Shown piece by piece: positions 1,244 through 7,285 of a stretch of DNA of 17,590 nucleotides. Position numbers and translations under genes: made by a program. Source of the DNA: Nitrospinae bacterium RIFCSPLOWO2_12_FULL_45_22 (GTDB lineage: Bacteria; 2-12-FULL-45-22); the NCBI GenBank assembly GCA_001803565.1, contig MHDQ01000282.1, positions 16,346 through 33,935 of the forward strand, in the 5' to 3' direction. The stretch's first letter is position 1, and every line of letters begins with the position of its first letter. The notes under the pieces were generated by a model, which made no database searches, was not told where the DNA came from, and saw nothing but the letters and a program-made list of their open reading frames with translations.

Positions 1244-1270
1244 GAGGGTTAATCCCTCATTATTTTTGTG
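1244..1270 (+). terminator. Weak terminator-like hairpin after the VapBC-like module
   Basis: GAGGG at 1244-1248 pairs with CCCTC at 1254-1258 around a TTAAT loop, followed by ATTATTTTTG. The stem is only 5 bp, but its position just after the repaired toxin stop and before the convergent DsbA-like gene suits a rho-independent terminator. Confidence 0.35.
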
Positions 1271-2024
1271 AAGAAAGGAGGCTGTCTATGGCCTCCCTGA
1301 AACTAGCATAGGGCTGGGCTCCCCTTATTACCCTGAGCACTTTTACCTTTGAGTTTTTGGGGTCCGTAAATCCCAAGAAAAAGATGGGTGTGCCTCTTAA
1401 GCCGCTCTTTTGCCCCTCTGCTATATCGTTGCGGATTTCAGTAGCGTGTTTGCCGCTATCAAGGCATTGTTGGAATTCAGGCATGTCTAGCCCGAGGGCC
1501 TGGGCATGTCCTGATAAATCCTTCGGGCTCAGGGCCTTTTGATGAGCAAAGAGCCGGGCATGCATCTCCCAGTATTTTCCTTGTTCACCGGCGCAGTTGG
1601 CCGCCTCGGCCGCCTTGAAGGCCTCTTTGTGGATGGATTCAATAGGAAAGTTGCGGAAGACATATTTGACCTTGCCGGTCTTGATATAATCCCGCTCGAT
1701 CTGGGGCACCGTCTCCCGGAAGTGCCGGGCACAAAAGGGTCACTGGTAATCAGAAAACTCGATCAGGGTCAGCTTAGCATTCTTGTCCCCTTTAAAGGGA
1801 TTATCAGCGACATTTAGAACAACCTCCTGGGGCAGCTGTTTCCCTTGCAGGATGTTTCTAATCTCCTGGAGCTCCTTTTGGATGGCTCTCTGGCCTTCTT
1901 TGAGCGCCTCTATCTCTTTTCGCAAAGCCTTCAACTCTTCACTGGATTGAGTAAAGCCCGATTGAGGGCAAAAGAAAGTCAATAGACACAACCCAAGAAG
2001 AATCCTTTGAAATATATTTATCAT
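1260..2024 (-). CDS. DsbA-like thioredoxin-fold oxidoreductase, probable selenoprotein (in-frame UGA at the CxxC position)
   Basis: A secreted thiol-disulfide oxidoreductase of the DsbA/thioredoxin_4 type. From the ATG at 2024 it has a hydrophobic signal ('FQRILLGLCLLTFF'), a charged coiled-coil-like linker (about residues 30-60, 'LKALRKEIEALKEGQ'), then the fold: 'LTLIEFSDYQ', UGA at 1742-1740, 'PFCARHF', 'VKYVFRNFPI', and the cis-proline loop 'GLRGTPIFFLG'. The UGA is residue 95 and sits exactly where relatives have the first Cys of CxxC. The second Cys is residue 98. Reading through gives 254 residues, normal for the family, with no other lesion. The frame stays open to a GTG at 2075, but that extension is encoded by a dispersed repeat (2043-2130), so ATG 2024 or 2036 is preferred. 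Alternative: a TGC-to-TGA nonsense mutation or sequencing error. Confidence 0.7.
1705..1726 (-). promoter_or_regulatory. Candidate bacterial SECIS hairpin downstream of the in-frame UGA
   Basis: Numbering U of the UGA as 1 on the minus strand, GGCA (17-20) pairs with UGCC (35-38). A CUU bulge follows on the 5' side. CCG (24-26) then pairs with CGG (32-34) and closes a GGAGA loop. Bacterial SECIS elements lie inside the coding region just after the UGA and have a short upper stem, often a 5' bulged U, and a G in the first two loop positions. The E. coli fdhF element has the same order: lower stem, bulged U, 3-bp upper stem, GGUC loop. Here the loop starts 23 nt after the UGA. The base after the UGA is C, as in fdhF. 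Folding was done by eye. Confidence 0.5.
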
Positions 2025-3934: not shown

Positions 3935-4285
3935 TTAGGCTTCCAAAAAATCAATAGTATAAGATTCCATTCCAGATGGATGTTTAGAGGTATATTTTTT
4001 AAGGGCATTGGCTATTAGGGAGAATTTATCCCCTGCCAGGGTATAAGGTATGATAAGCACCCCATAATGAGGGCGGTGTTCATTAAAGAATTGAACCGTA
4101 AGTCTGATATAGTCATTCCGATTTCTGGTTACCATACACCTCCCTTTAGAAACGGCATATTCTAGTTGCTCTTTATCAAGGGCCTGGGTCATACCTACTT
4201 CATGGGCGCTAATAGCATCAATCTGATATTTTCTCAACAGCTCTGCAATCTTCGGGCTTATATCCTCGTCAAGATAATATTTCAC
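3935..4285 (-). CDS. DUF5615 PIN-like toxin
   Basis: A 116-residue protein beginning 'MKYYLDEDISPKIAELLR', the DUF5615 (Mut7-C-like, PIN-like) pattern, with acidic residues D6 and D8 at the end of the first strand. It continues 'IDAISAHEVGM', 'LEYAVSKGRCMVTRNRNDY' (D58) and 'HYGVLIIPY', matching the family's 'l.T.D.DF' and 'GiiiI' segments. Members pair with DUF433 antitoxins and are predicted RNases. Translation starts at a GTG whose G is the last base of the upstream antitoxin's TAG, so the two are tightly coupled. Family membership is clear. Toxin activity is inferred from the pairing. Confidence 0.75.
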   Translation of the reverse strand: MKYYLDEDISPKIAELLRKYQIDAISAHEVGMTQALDKEQLEYAVSKGRCMVTRNRNDYIRLTVQFFNEHRPHYGVLIIPYTLAGDKFSLIANALKKYTSKHPSGMESYTIDFLEA

Positions 4286-4701
4286 TAACTATTTCCCCTT
4301 AGAAAGGGGTATCCTTCATGAATACGTTCTCTGGTCCAGCTTTCGTTCTGAGTTATCAGTTGGTCAATCTCGCCAGGGTACTTCCGATAATAGCCAATAG
4401 CGGCCCTGAGTTGCTGTTCGGTAAGCCAGTGATAGATATTACGCAGGCGTTCAAAATCCTCTCTTACACCCTTATAATTGGCAATGACTTCCCACGCCTC
4501 TATGCCACTCCCAGCTATTCTGGCCCGGTAGCCACTTACTCCCTCAGAAAAAATAATCCCCGGACAGCATCGCATCTTGATGGCCTCTTCGAGAAGTTCT
4601 CTTACCATGGTAGAGAATTCTTTTCCCGATTCCTGGGCAATAGTTTGAACCTCTTTGACGAGTTCTTCGGGAATCCTCATACTTTTTTGAACGGTTGCCA
4701 T
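4285..4701 (-). CDS. Ribbon-helix-helix + DUF433 fusion antitoxin
   Basis: This 138-residue protein joins two modules. Residues 3-43 ('VQKSMRIPEELVKEVQTIAQ', 'FSTMVRELLEEAI') are a ribbon-helix-helix DNA-binding fold. Residues about 51-117 ('GYRARIAGSGIEAWEVIANY', 'LTEQQLRAAIGYYRKYPGEI') are a DUF433 domain, the antitoxin type that accompanies DUF5615 toxins. It probably binds both its promoter and the toxin. ATG 4701 is chosen because GAGGGGGTG lies 8 nt upstream. The frame is open 19 codons further, but that part translates the ribosome-binding site. A possible operator region lies upstream at about 4770-4800, with direct near-repeats of AATACAA/AATACGA, not demonstrable by eye. Confidence 0.7.
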   Translation of the reverse strand: MATVQKSMRIPEELVKEVQTIAQESGKEFSTMVRELLEEAIKMRCCPGIIFSEGVSGYRARIAGSGIEAWEVIANYKGVREDFERLRNIYHWLTEQQLRAAIGYYRKYPGEIDQLITQNESWTRERIHEGYPFLRGNS

Positions 4702-4802
4702 AATAACACCCCCTCTATTGCTAGAATCACCAACGATAAGGGGCCTCGTACTGTTCACATCCCATCATCATGCAATACAATACGATGAAATACAACGCAT
4801 GT

Positions 4803-4836
4803 CAAATTAGCGCAGGCTTTAGCCTGCGCTAATTTG
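4803..4836. repeat. Perfect 16-bp-arm extragenic palindrome
   Basis: CAAATTAGCGCAGGCT (4803-4818), two T, then AGCCTGCGCTAATTTG (4821-4836) form an uninterrupted inverted repeat. It stands between the RHH/DUF433 operon and the broken SEC-C gene. It resembles the GCAGGCT-AAGCCTGC type of dispersed palindromes common in metagenome-derived genomes. It could also act as a bidirectional terminator, although no long T run follows. Confidence 0.6.
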
Positions 4837-4846
4837 TGGAAAGCTA

Positions 4847-5304
4847 TTAGTAATCAACTGATAAGGAATTGCTTTTCTGTTTAGGAAAGATTAACATAGC
4901 GATAAGGAAGATGGCAACCTTTTTTCTAGCTTTGACACGGAATTTATATTTATCGAGCCAGAAGAAGTAATTAAGAGATAGATAGGATAGTAAGAGCTTG
5001 TTGTGAGGCAGATTTTTTGAAATAAAATGCTTAATTTTGGCTAGAAGTTCTTCAGTTTTTTCTTTGCCGAATTTCCGCACTATCTCATCCCACAATGGGG
5101 AAGTTCGAATTTGCTTTTGGTATTCCTTAGTCATATGTTCCAATTGTTCGGGGGACAGCGTCTCACCAGGCATAGCGAAGTGAATACCGTCGTCTTCAAT
5201 CCAAGAAAACGACGCAGTGAAGATTGAGCTTTCCTACAACATTTTTTGAATTTTTTCCCGCTGCCACATGAGCAAGGATCGTTTCTACCAATTCTTCTAT
5301 TCAT
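4847..5304 (-). pseudogene. SEC-C motif protein, frameshifted and 3'-replaced
   Basis: ATG 5304, with GAGG 6 nt upstream, opens a 57-residue frame (5304-5131) with a textbook SEC-C zinc motif, '[18 protein letters not shown]', as at the SecA C-terminus and in many small proteins. The second part is in another frame: '[20 protein letters not shown]', '[20 protein letters not shown]', 'VRKFGKEKTEELL'. I judge this to be the normal continuation, so a one-base frameshift lies between about 5230 and 5190. From about 5021 to the stop at 4847 the protein is encoded by the 163-bp direct repeat ('FLIAMLIFPKQKSNSLS'), so the natural 3' end was replaced by that insertion. It lies 61 nt after the PRiA4b-ORF3-like gene and was probably its operon partner. 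Confidence 0.6.
4859..5021. repeat. 163-bp direct repeat, copy 1
   Basis: Nearly identical to 6683-6844, with about four substitutions and one extra T in a T run by eye. Both copies begin TGATAAGGAATTGC and end GAGGCAGATTTTTT, and the flanks differ on both sides, so the boundaries are sharp. Copy 1 ends inside the SEC-C gene. The element's nature is unknown. On the minus strand it encodes a hydrophobic stretch. Confidence 0.75.
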
Positions 5305-5365
5305 TTACTGCCTCAAGGTGATTATTGACCTTTACTTTTGGGCAAAACTGACCTATTCTCCAACT

Positions 5366-6049
5366 TCAGTAAGGTGGCTCGGCTGGCCCACTATAGCCAC
5401 ACATCCCCAGACGTGGAGAATTGACTAGTGGTAAAGGCTCACCATAATCCTCGTGGGGATGCGCTTTAACGTGCGTATCGCACAATGTCCCCCAGACATC
5501 TTCTTCAATCAAACATTCTATACACAACCAAGCTCCTGGCCGCTCACATTCCATACAACGTTCTTCAGGGGGAATATTACGTGCCATGAGGGCGATTGGA
5601 TGGGAAGAGTTCGGTTTACCTTCACGTACACCCACTGCTTTTATCAGGGTTTCAGATGATGTGCCAAAATCATAAATGTGAGTCAGTTCTACGCCTGGTT
5701 CAAATACCTCTTGGATTTGGCGTTTCATAGCTATTTCTTCTCCACCCCACCCCCCTATAGAAAACTGGCTGAGATGCCCACAACATTCTAACCAGATTCC
5801 CCTCAAATAGTAATCCAAATCCTTCAACTTAGCCCTTCCGCACATCTCTAAATCTAACCAGAAATCACTAGAACCAGCATCCTGTACACGGAGATGGTAG
5901 ATAGTTTCTGTTTTCCCCGGCTTGTGATCTGCTTGTTCGATGATGGCTCGGCGTCGGGTACAAGTAGACAGATGTTTGATCATCCCACCTTTAGCCATCT
6001 CTTGCCCACAATAGACGCATACCCCTCGTGATTGTTTTTTTCGCGACAT
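5366..6049 (-). CDS. PRiA4b ORF-3-like (IS1096 passenger type) zinc-finger protein
   Basis: A 227-residue protein. Residues 11-30 form a Cys2-His-Cys zinc finger (C11, C14, H26, C30). Residues 49-155 match the plasmid pRiA4b ORF-3 domain (PF07929): 'YHLRVQDAGSSDFWLDLEM', 'LKDLDYYLRGIWLECCGHLS', 'LTHIYDFGTSSETLIKAVGV'. The C-terminus has a second metal cluster (C165-x2-C168, C176-x2-C179, C190, H193) and 'NSPRLGMCGYSG'. Such proteins are often labelled 'IS1096 element passenger TnpR family', but the name is historical, recombinase activity is not shown, and there is no serine-recombinase motif here. ATG 6049 has AGGAG 6 nt upstream. The gene is intact, unlike most neighbours. Confidence 0.75.
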   Translation of the reverse strand: MSRKKQSRGVCVYCGQEMAKGGMIKHLSTCTRRRAIIEQADHKPGKTETIYHLRVQDAGSSDFWLDLEMCGRAKLKDLDYYLRGIWLECCGHLSQFSIGGWGGEEIAMKRQIQEVFEPGVELTHIYDFGTSSETLIKAVGVREGKPNSSHPIALMARNIPPEERCMECERPGAWLCIECLIEEDVWGTLCDTHVKAHPHEDYGEPLPLVNSPRLGMCGYSGPAEPPY

Positions 6050-6060
6050 CGGATTCTCCT

Positions 6061-6485
6061 TTAAACTAAGGGATTATTTGTTTAGAATTTTATCCTGACA
6101 AGAATACTTTCTATTTGGTGCACCCAACGGTGGAATTGAGCGGCAACCGCAGATGGCATCAATATCGGATTTACATACTTTTGGCTAGGCCGTTTTAACC
6201 CTTCAAACTACCTTATTTAAACCCAAGGTGCAGATTTGAGCCAGTAATCTTGCTTTTAAACAAATTAGCTAATGAACCGGGTAGCCAGGAGCCCTAGCCG
6301 GCCCCAAGCCCCCTCAGGTAGGGTCAAGGAATAGTGCCCGGTACGCACGTTTAGCCTATTTGTTTCTCCCTGTTTCCTCTCGGAGTGCATCATTAGCACT
6401 ACCGTATCCTAGTTTACATCCCCTCCTGCCTCAAACTTAAGGTACAGATTTGAACCAGTAATATTACCTTTAACCAAGTTAATAT
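6061..6485. repeat. Gene-free stretch with two diverged 50-bp repeats
   Basis: No coding frame is convincing. Two imperfect direct repeats stand about 215 bp apart, at 6219-6268 and 6434-6482. They share the core AGATTTGA(G/A)CCAGTAAT and flanking AAGGT(G/A)C and TTTAA(A/C)CAA. AATATCGGAT also occurs twice (6162 and 6481 areas). The stretch looks like decayed, partly duplicated sequence. Confidence 0.4.
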
Positions 6486-6515
6486 CGGATGCGGAGTAGA
6501 GGCAACTGTTAGCCC

Positions 6516-6680
6516 TCAATATCTGTATCTGATTCGATCTAGATTTTCTCTGAATTTCTGCTTCATTCTGTATGACCATCTGCTGTCATTTAGAAGATTA
6601 TCGAAACCGTCCTCAACGAGATCCAGCGGAAAATAACGCAGACTCTTGAGAATCGCATCAATATAACTCCTTGTAGATGA
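6516..6680 (-). pseudogene. C-terminal fragment of an unrecognised protein
   Basis: A 54-codon minus-strand frame with strong protein-like character ends at a TGA at 6518-6516: 'YIDAILKSLRYFPLDLVEDG', 'FDNLLNDSRWSYRMKQKFRE', 'NLDRIRYRY'. Its upstream side ends where the 163-bp repeat copy 2 begins (6683), so the 5' part has been lost or displaced. I do not recognise the family. No start codon is assigned. Confidence 0.4.
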
Positions 6681-6682
6681 GA

Positions 6683-6844
6683 TGATAAGGAATTGCTTTT
6701 CTGTTTAGGAAAGATTAACATAGCGATAAGGAAGAGGGCAACCTTTTTTTCTAGCCTTGACACGGAATTTCTATTTATTGAGCCAGAAGAAGTAATTAAG
6801 AGATAGATAGGATAGTAAGAGCTTGTTGTGAGGCAGATTTTTTC
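6683..6844. repeat. 163-bp direct repeat, copy 2
   Basis: Second copy of the sharp-edged repeat at 4859-5021. Its right end (GCAGATTTTTT) lies 6 bp from the stop of the IS91-type transposase remnant. One extra T in a T run breaks the reading frame seen in copy 1. The two copies bracket the PRiA4b-ORF3-like gene, the SEC-C remnant and the gene-free stretch. Confidence 0.75.
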
Positions 6845-6849
6845 ATAGA

Positions 6850-7285
6850 CTATCTCGCCCTTAGGTGAAGATTCCCGGTTGGGTGGGTCTCTGGAAGGTC
6901 ATCCTCAGGTCTTGCTTGAGGCGCTTCACCAGGTCTCTGGATACCCTGTTTCTTGCGTATCCCCCGGGATTTATTGCGGATAATATACTGTGCTCGGGTC
7001 TCTCTTCCCTCCCCTTCATCCCTTAGCACCCTTACCCCGTTGTGCACACTAAAGCCAGAATGTCTCCAGCTAAAGTAGAGACGAGGCATAATTGGAATAC
7101 TGAAGACATATTGACGGTGGGGGACAGGGTAGAGAATATTATGGCGCAAAAATTCTCCGAACTGGATCACCTTTTTGGAGTGGCATGAAGGGCAGAACCA
7201 ACGGCCTTTACAACTAAAGGCAAGCAAATACTCTTCGCTGCAATCCTTGCAGCGCACCCTTGCGAAACCATAATGCCAAAGTTTT
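6850..7285 (-). pseudogene. IS91-family transposase, N-truncated and internally deleted
   Basis: The frame is open from a TGA near 7287, giving 'YGFARVRCKDCSEEYLLAFS', 'CKGRWFCPSCHSKKV', 'PVPHRQYVFSIPIMPRLYF', the zinc-binding domain and following strand of IS91-type Y2 transposases (C-x2-C and C-x2-C pairs present). It then jumps to 'FSVHNGVRVLRDEGEGRETR', 'AQYIIRN', which in full-length relatives comes well over 100 residues later. The tyrosine-bearing catalytic part between is missing. The last 40 residues do not match the family. The element is dead. In-frame GTG 7257 is not a real start. Confidence 0.75.

Follow-up and report, generated by a model that had tools for sequence, protein, structure and literature searches.

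The window analysed here, a stretch of 17,590 nucleotides, carries a gene for a DsbA-like thioredoxin-fold protein that is read on the minus strand from 2024 to 1260, encodes 254 residues and ends in a TAA stop; the ATG at 2036 is an in-frame alternative start. The earlier note gave the correct coordinates for this gene and left the strand unmentioned. The TGA at 1742-1740 (...EFSDYQ-U-PFCARHF...) is the sole in-frame stop and falls at codon 95 of 254, which bears out the claim that a UGA at the first CxxC cysteine is the only lesion. A stop can arise in the gene through 103 different single-base changes, and just one of these 103 produces TGA at codon 95. Without recoding, the frame is read as two ORFs, 2075-1740 and 1709-1260; standard annotation breaks the gene into two pieces there and so misses the enzyme. 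The features of the gene are as follows.

1260-2024, minus strand: gene for the predicted selenocysteine (Sec)-containing DsbA-like thioredoxin-fold protein (translation with TGA read as U, Pfam, AlphaFold)
1947-2024, minus strand: probable N-terminal signal peptide, residues 1-26 (the window copy and its homologues begin with a hydrophobic stretch)
1845-1943, minus strand: long N-terminal helix, residues 28-60, coiled-coil-like (helix 28-60 in the AlphaFold model; charged/leucine pattern kept in the 20-sequence alignment A1)
1740-1742, minus strand: codon 95, an in-frame UGA where CxxC has its first Cys (UPFC; alignment column)
1731-1733, minus strand: second active-site cysteine, Cys98 (TGT), invariant in A1
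1705-1726, minus strand: candidate bacterial SECIS hairpin GGCACUUCCGGGAGACGGUGCC (bSECIS rules)
1386-1391, minus strand: Thr212-Pro213, the cis-Pro loop of the thioredoxin fold; both residues invariant in A1

Both Pfam domains found in the protein, Thioredoxin_4 (4.6e-30) and DSBA (3e-19), span the TGA, and the DSBA domain scores 70 bits against a gathering cut-off of 25.6. With a score over the gathering cut-off, a CxxC equivalent and the cis-Pro, the protein is DsbA-like in the sense of PF01323 / PF13462. The AlphaFold model shows a DsbA-type fold with a mean pLDDT of 88.9. The earlier note had described the downstream frame as conserved, including the cis-Pro loop and the second Cys, and the invariance of Thr212, Pro213 and Cys98 agrees with this description. 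It had also called UGA an ordinary stop elsewhere in the window, and TGA indeed ends 6 of the 14 other window ORFs checked. The gene is surrounded by neighbours that resemble toxin-antitoxin modules (575-1166, 2382-2666 and 3935-4758): a small ORF followed by a PIN-domain protein, a DUF4258 protein, and a DUF5615/DUF433 pair. The fragment at 6850-7257 carries a zinc-binding domain of the IS91 transposase type.

A scan of GTDB contigs for DsbA-like homologues returned 80 loci, five of which have TGA in the same column (six copies: L027, L029, L031, L034 and two in L035). A further locus from another whole genome, L104, has it too. With the window gene, the family therefore comprises eight TGA copies in seven genomes; the other seven, which come from six genomes besides the host's, show 54-70% identity. 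The two copies of L035 share a contig, one on its plus strand (4705-5430) and one on its minus strand (6343-7032), and both have the loop CGUGA. Among 130 aligned sites at the UGA column, 69 are TGC, 47 TGT, nine TGA, four tyrosine and one alanine; the nine TGA sites are the eight family copies and a paralogue in the host genome (L023), and none of the 130 is TAA or TAG. The alignment of homologues that the earlier note called for thus contains Sec/Cys pairs at this column (TGA versus TGC or TGT), and the stops of close relatives, which that note had considered might be unrelated, sit at the same codon. Measured against five near homologues, identity is 59-62% ahead of the UGA and 65-77% beyond it, and the substitutions that separate the window gene from its near homologues fall mostly at third codon positions. 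This conservation beyond the UGA, at least equal to that before it, argues together with the third-position changes against a pseudogene.

A phylum-wide search in the area of genome G074 (three genomes) gave one further locus, L133, whose UGA-region sequence is identical to that of L027 and which probably belongs to the same genome. Plasmid records hold relatives only below 60% identity and none at or above it. A by-eye comparison of the genes next to the Sec copies revealed no partner gene in common. A separate arrangement occurs in Anaerolineae/Caldilineae, where, in a tandem DsbA-like pair, the gene with tyrosine for the first Cys (DYxYPxC) directly precedes one with a normal CxxC; the tyrosine-bearing loci are L068:899-1432, L074:2927-3457, L086:5001-5435 and L088:2604-3131.

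The host paralogue (L023:1369-2007, contig C222) is a divergent Thioredoxin_4 protein in which UGA takes the place of the equivalent Cys (DYQ-U-PHC); it is 36% identical to the window protein over about 144 residues. By-eye naming of its neighbours gives a ResB-like gene on one side and a DoxX-like gene on the other. Four other genomes contain distant relatives (L134-L137) with UGA at the same column. The hairpin loops of L134, L136, L137 and L023 begin with GG; L023 fails the automatic SECIS test when its minimum-energy fold is used.

The host genome (3.67 Mb in 321 contigs, 85% complete) contains selA (588 bits) adjoining selB (372 bits) on one contig, a tRNA-Sec of 75 bits with the anticodon TCA, and selD (401 bits; L018:1372-2457, contig C19). 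All four of selA, selB, selC and selD, for which the earlier note had proposed to search, are therefore present, and the absence of selA, selB or selC that it had named as evidence against its reading is not observed. The selD gene has an in-frame UGA of its own in GGG-U-ACK, and the host SelD is accordingly predicted from its sequence to be a selenoprotein itself. Besides the full-length selB on contig C264, a 246-residue ORF (L139:63-803, host contig C215) matches SelB over positions 1-180 only, with 233 bits, and has the appearance of a stand-alone SelB-like GTPase-domain protein.

Among the six other TGA-bearing genomes, selA and selB score over the cut-off in four (G098, G099, G101 and G102); tRNA-Sec is clear in three of these (74-81 bits) and marginal in G102 (50 bits). 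The genome of L104 (G074), 97% complete, has a clear tRNA-Sec of 78 bits, no recognisable selA and no selB over the cut-off, and that of L031 (G100) has no clear selA and a tRNA-Sec score that is only marginal. We infer assembly gaps for the Sec genes missing from these two genomes. G074 carries two UGA-bearing DsbA-like genes, and its missing selA and selB may reflect an assembly gap or something odd.

To be accepted under the bSECIS rules of a 2026 review (PMC13188914), a hairpin has a loop of 3-9 nt, an upper stem of 4-16 bp, a distance of 16-37 nt from the UGA, a G in the first two loop positions and an MFE of at most -7.5 kcal/mol; as applied here, the upper stem-length bound was not enforced because internal loops were bridged. 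The window hairpin has the apical loop GGGA (1714-1717) 22 nt after the UGA and -8.0 kcal/mol as an isolated hairpin. All eight TGA copies pass these rules, yet the same is true of 23% of arbitrary codons taken from the window ORFs and of 17 among 41 close Cys homologues, so the test is not specific. Seven of the eight copies have CGUGA as their loop, at a distance of 21 nt from the UGA. The window copy is the exception, and the V codon with which the other seven complete their upper stem is missing from it. Compared with synonymous-codon shuffles, the folding energy of the window copy has a z of about -1.5, with 8% of shuffles as stable. Covariation is weak, with one pair changed on both sides and 67 of 500 shuffles as good, and an Rfam search of 1200-2100 at a lax threshold gave chance matches only and no SECIS family. 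As to the SECIS check suggested in the earlier note, a rule-abiding hairpin occurs in all eight copies, but that of the window is unexceptional against the 23% background and the 8% of shuffles. A SECIS fits these results and keeps its position across the family; for the window copy by itself the evidence is modest and falls short of proof, which makes this SECIS the least well supported step of the reading.

In a tree of 70 rows the Sec forms fall into more than one clade and are intermixed with Cys forms. At least two Sec/Cys changes are forced by well-supported branches, and six is the fewest on the tree as drawn. The window copy clusters with L026, L024 and L025, all of which are Cys forms. 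Cys forms are found in genomes with and without selA, as expected for Sec/Cys pairs.

These comparisons establish, at the level of sequence, the UGA column, the Sec/Cys pairs among homologues, the genes for decoding and a reading frame that stays conserved past the UGA, and we are highly confident that the window gene is a real DsbA-like selenoprotein gene with UGA for Sec at the first catalytic cysteine. An ordinary nonsense mutation would make it a young pseudogene in which the UGA simply ends translation. Such a change takes one base (TGY to TGA), and the relatives closest to it in tree path carry Cys; however, the identical UGA column recurs in seven other copies with conserved frames beyond it, and the Sec machinery is encoded in the same genome, which leaves this explanation very improbable. 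We attach almost no weight to a one-base sequencing or assembly error that turned a Cys codon into TGA: the difference is a single base and the assembly is a draft, but the same base appears at the same codon in assemblies of unrelated projects and in the host paralogue. Nor do we give any real credence to UGA standing for another amino acid (e.g. Trp, code 4) or to general readthrough. Although any code that gives UGA a sense meaning would leave the frame open, UGA terminates other window ORFs, the homologue column is Cys rather than Trp, and tRNA-Sec, SelA, SelB and SelD are present.

The remaining alternative accepts the Sec machinery and holds that the hairpin is too weak, the window copy being a decaying Sec gene that is poorly decoded or not decoded. 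The departure of the window hairpin from the CGUGA consensus and a stability no greater than that of synonymous shuffles would fit this. The hairpin still follows the published bSECIS rules, however, and the frame after the UGA is conserved as in the other copies; we consider decay unlikely, with a small chance of being correct. The selenocysteine reading advanced in the earlier note is thus supported by the Sec/Cys pairs, by the presence of selA, selB, selC and selD, and by the hairpin in eight copies.

In the proposed mechanism, SelB and tRNA-Sec would decode the UGA of codon 95 as selenocysteine, directed by the stem-loop in the coding sequence about 22 nt downstream, which would serve as the SECIS. 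If codon 95 is decoded in this way, Sec (UPFC) occupies the exchange-active first position of the CxxC motif as the putative attacking residue, with Cys98 as its partner. The product would be a secreted DsbA-like thiol:disulfide oxidoreductase. The finding leaves the general understanding of selenoproteins unchanged. The natural Sec/Cys pairs (eight Sec copies and many Cys forms) offer a compact set in which one could measure both what Sec contributes to exported disulfide chemistry and how Sec and Cys are repeatedly exchanged.

The top PDB fold matches of the model are Wolbachia alpha-DsbA1 and Bacillus subtilis BdbD, solved proteins that, in contrast to the predicted window protein, are not known to be selenoproteins. 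They are the closest in both fold and sequence (3f4r/s/t and 3eu3; Foldseek E values of 3.9e-15 and 1.4e-11, respectively; about 25% identity). Periplasmic proteins of the ScsC / BcfH type share the DsbA-like domain, and their fold-match alignments reach the N-terminal part, but the rmsd over the full length is large.

DsbA-like and DsbG-like UxxC selenoproteins were reported from the Sargasso Sea selenoproteome in 2005 (PMC1088965), counted in bacterial genomes in 2006 (PMC1794560) and listed in reviews of 2022 and 2026; having been known since 2005, they make the window gene a member of a described kind. By description rather than alignment, it resembles form 1 of the DsbA-like selenoproteins (PF01323, UxxC; PMC1088965) in the DSBA domain and the Sec at the first CxxC Cys; a SECIS inside the coding region, in the window gene a candidate, is a further likeness. 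The best NCBIfam match of the window protein, also matched by all 20 aligned homologues, is NF041057 (Rcas_1661 family thioredoxin-like (seleno)lipoprotein, DsbG-like), which is listed as UxxC (PMC13188914) and shares with it the UxxC in a Thioredoxin_4 domain and the occurrence of Sec and Cys members. The name Rcas_1661 was not found in a literature search. NF041057 is a lipoprotein family, and by eye no canonical lipobox is seen in residues 1-26 of the window protein. Its score of 127.3 bits lies below the cut-off of 190, which places the window protein outside the NF041057 equivalog. The TGA copies may represent a separate DsbA-like selenoprotein subfamily outside NF041057, a proposal for which our doubt slightly exceeds our confidence. 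It would be marked by the long N-terminal helix, a near-invariant CGUGA SECIS loop and several Sec/Cys exchanges among uncultured bacteria, in records labelled Nitrospinae, Acidobacteria, Deltaproteobacteria and Syntrophaceae.
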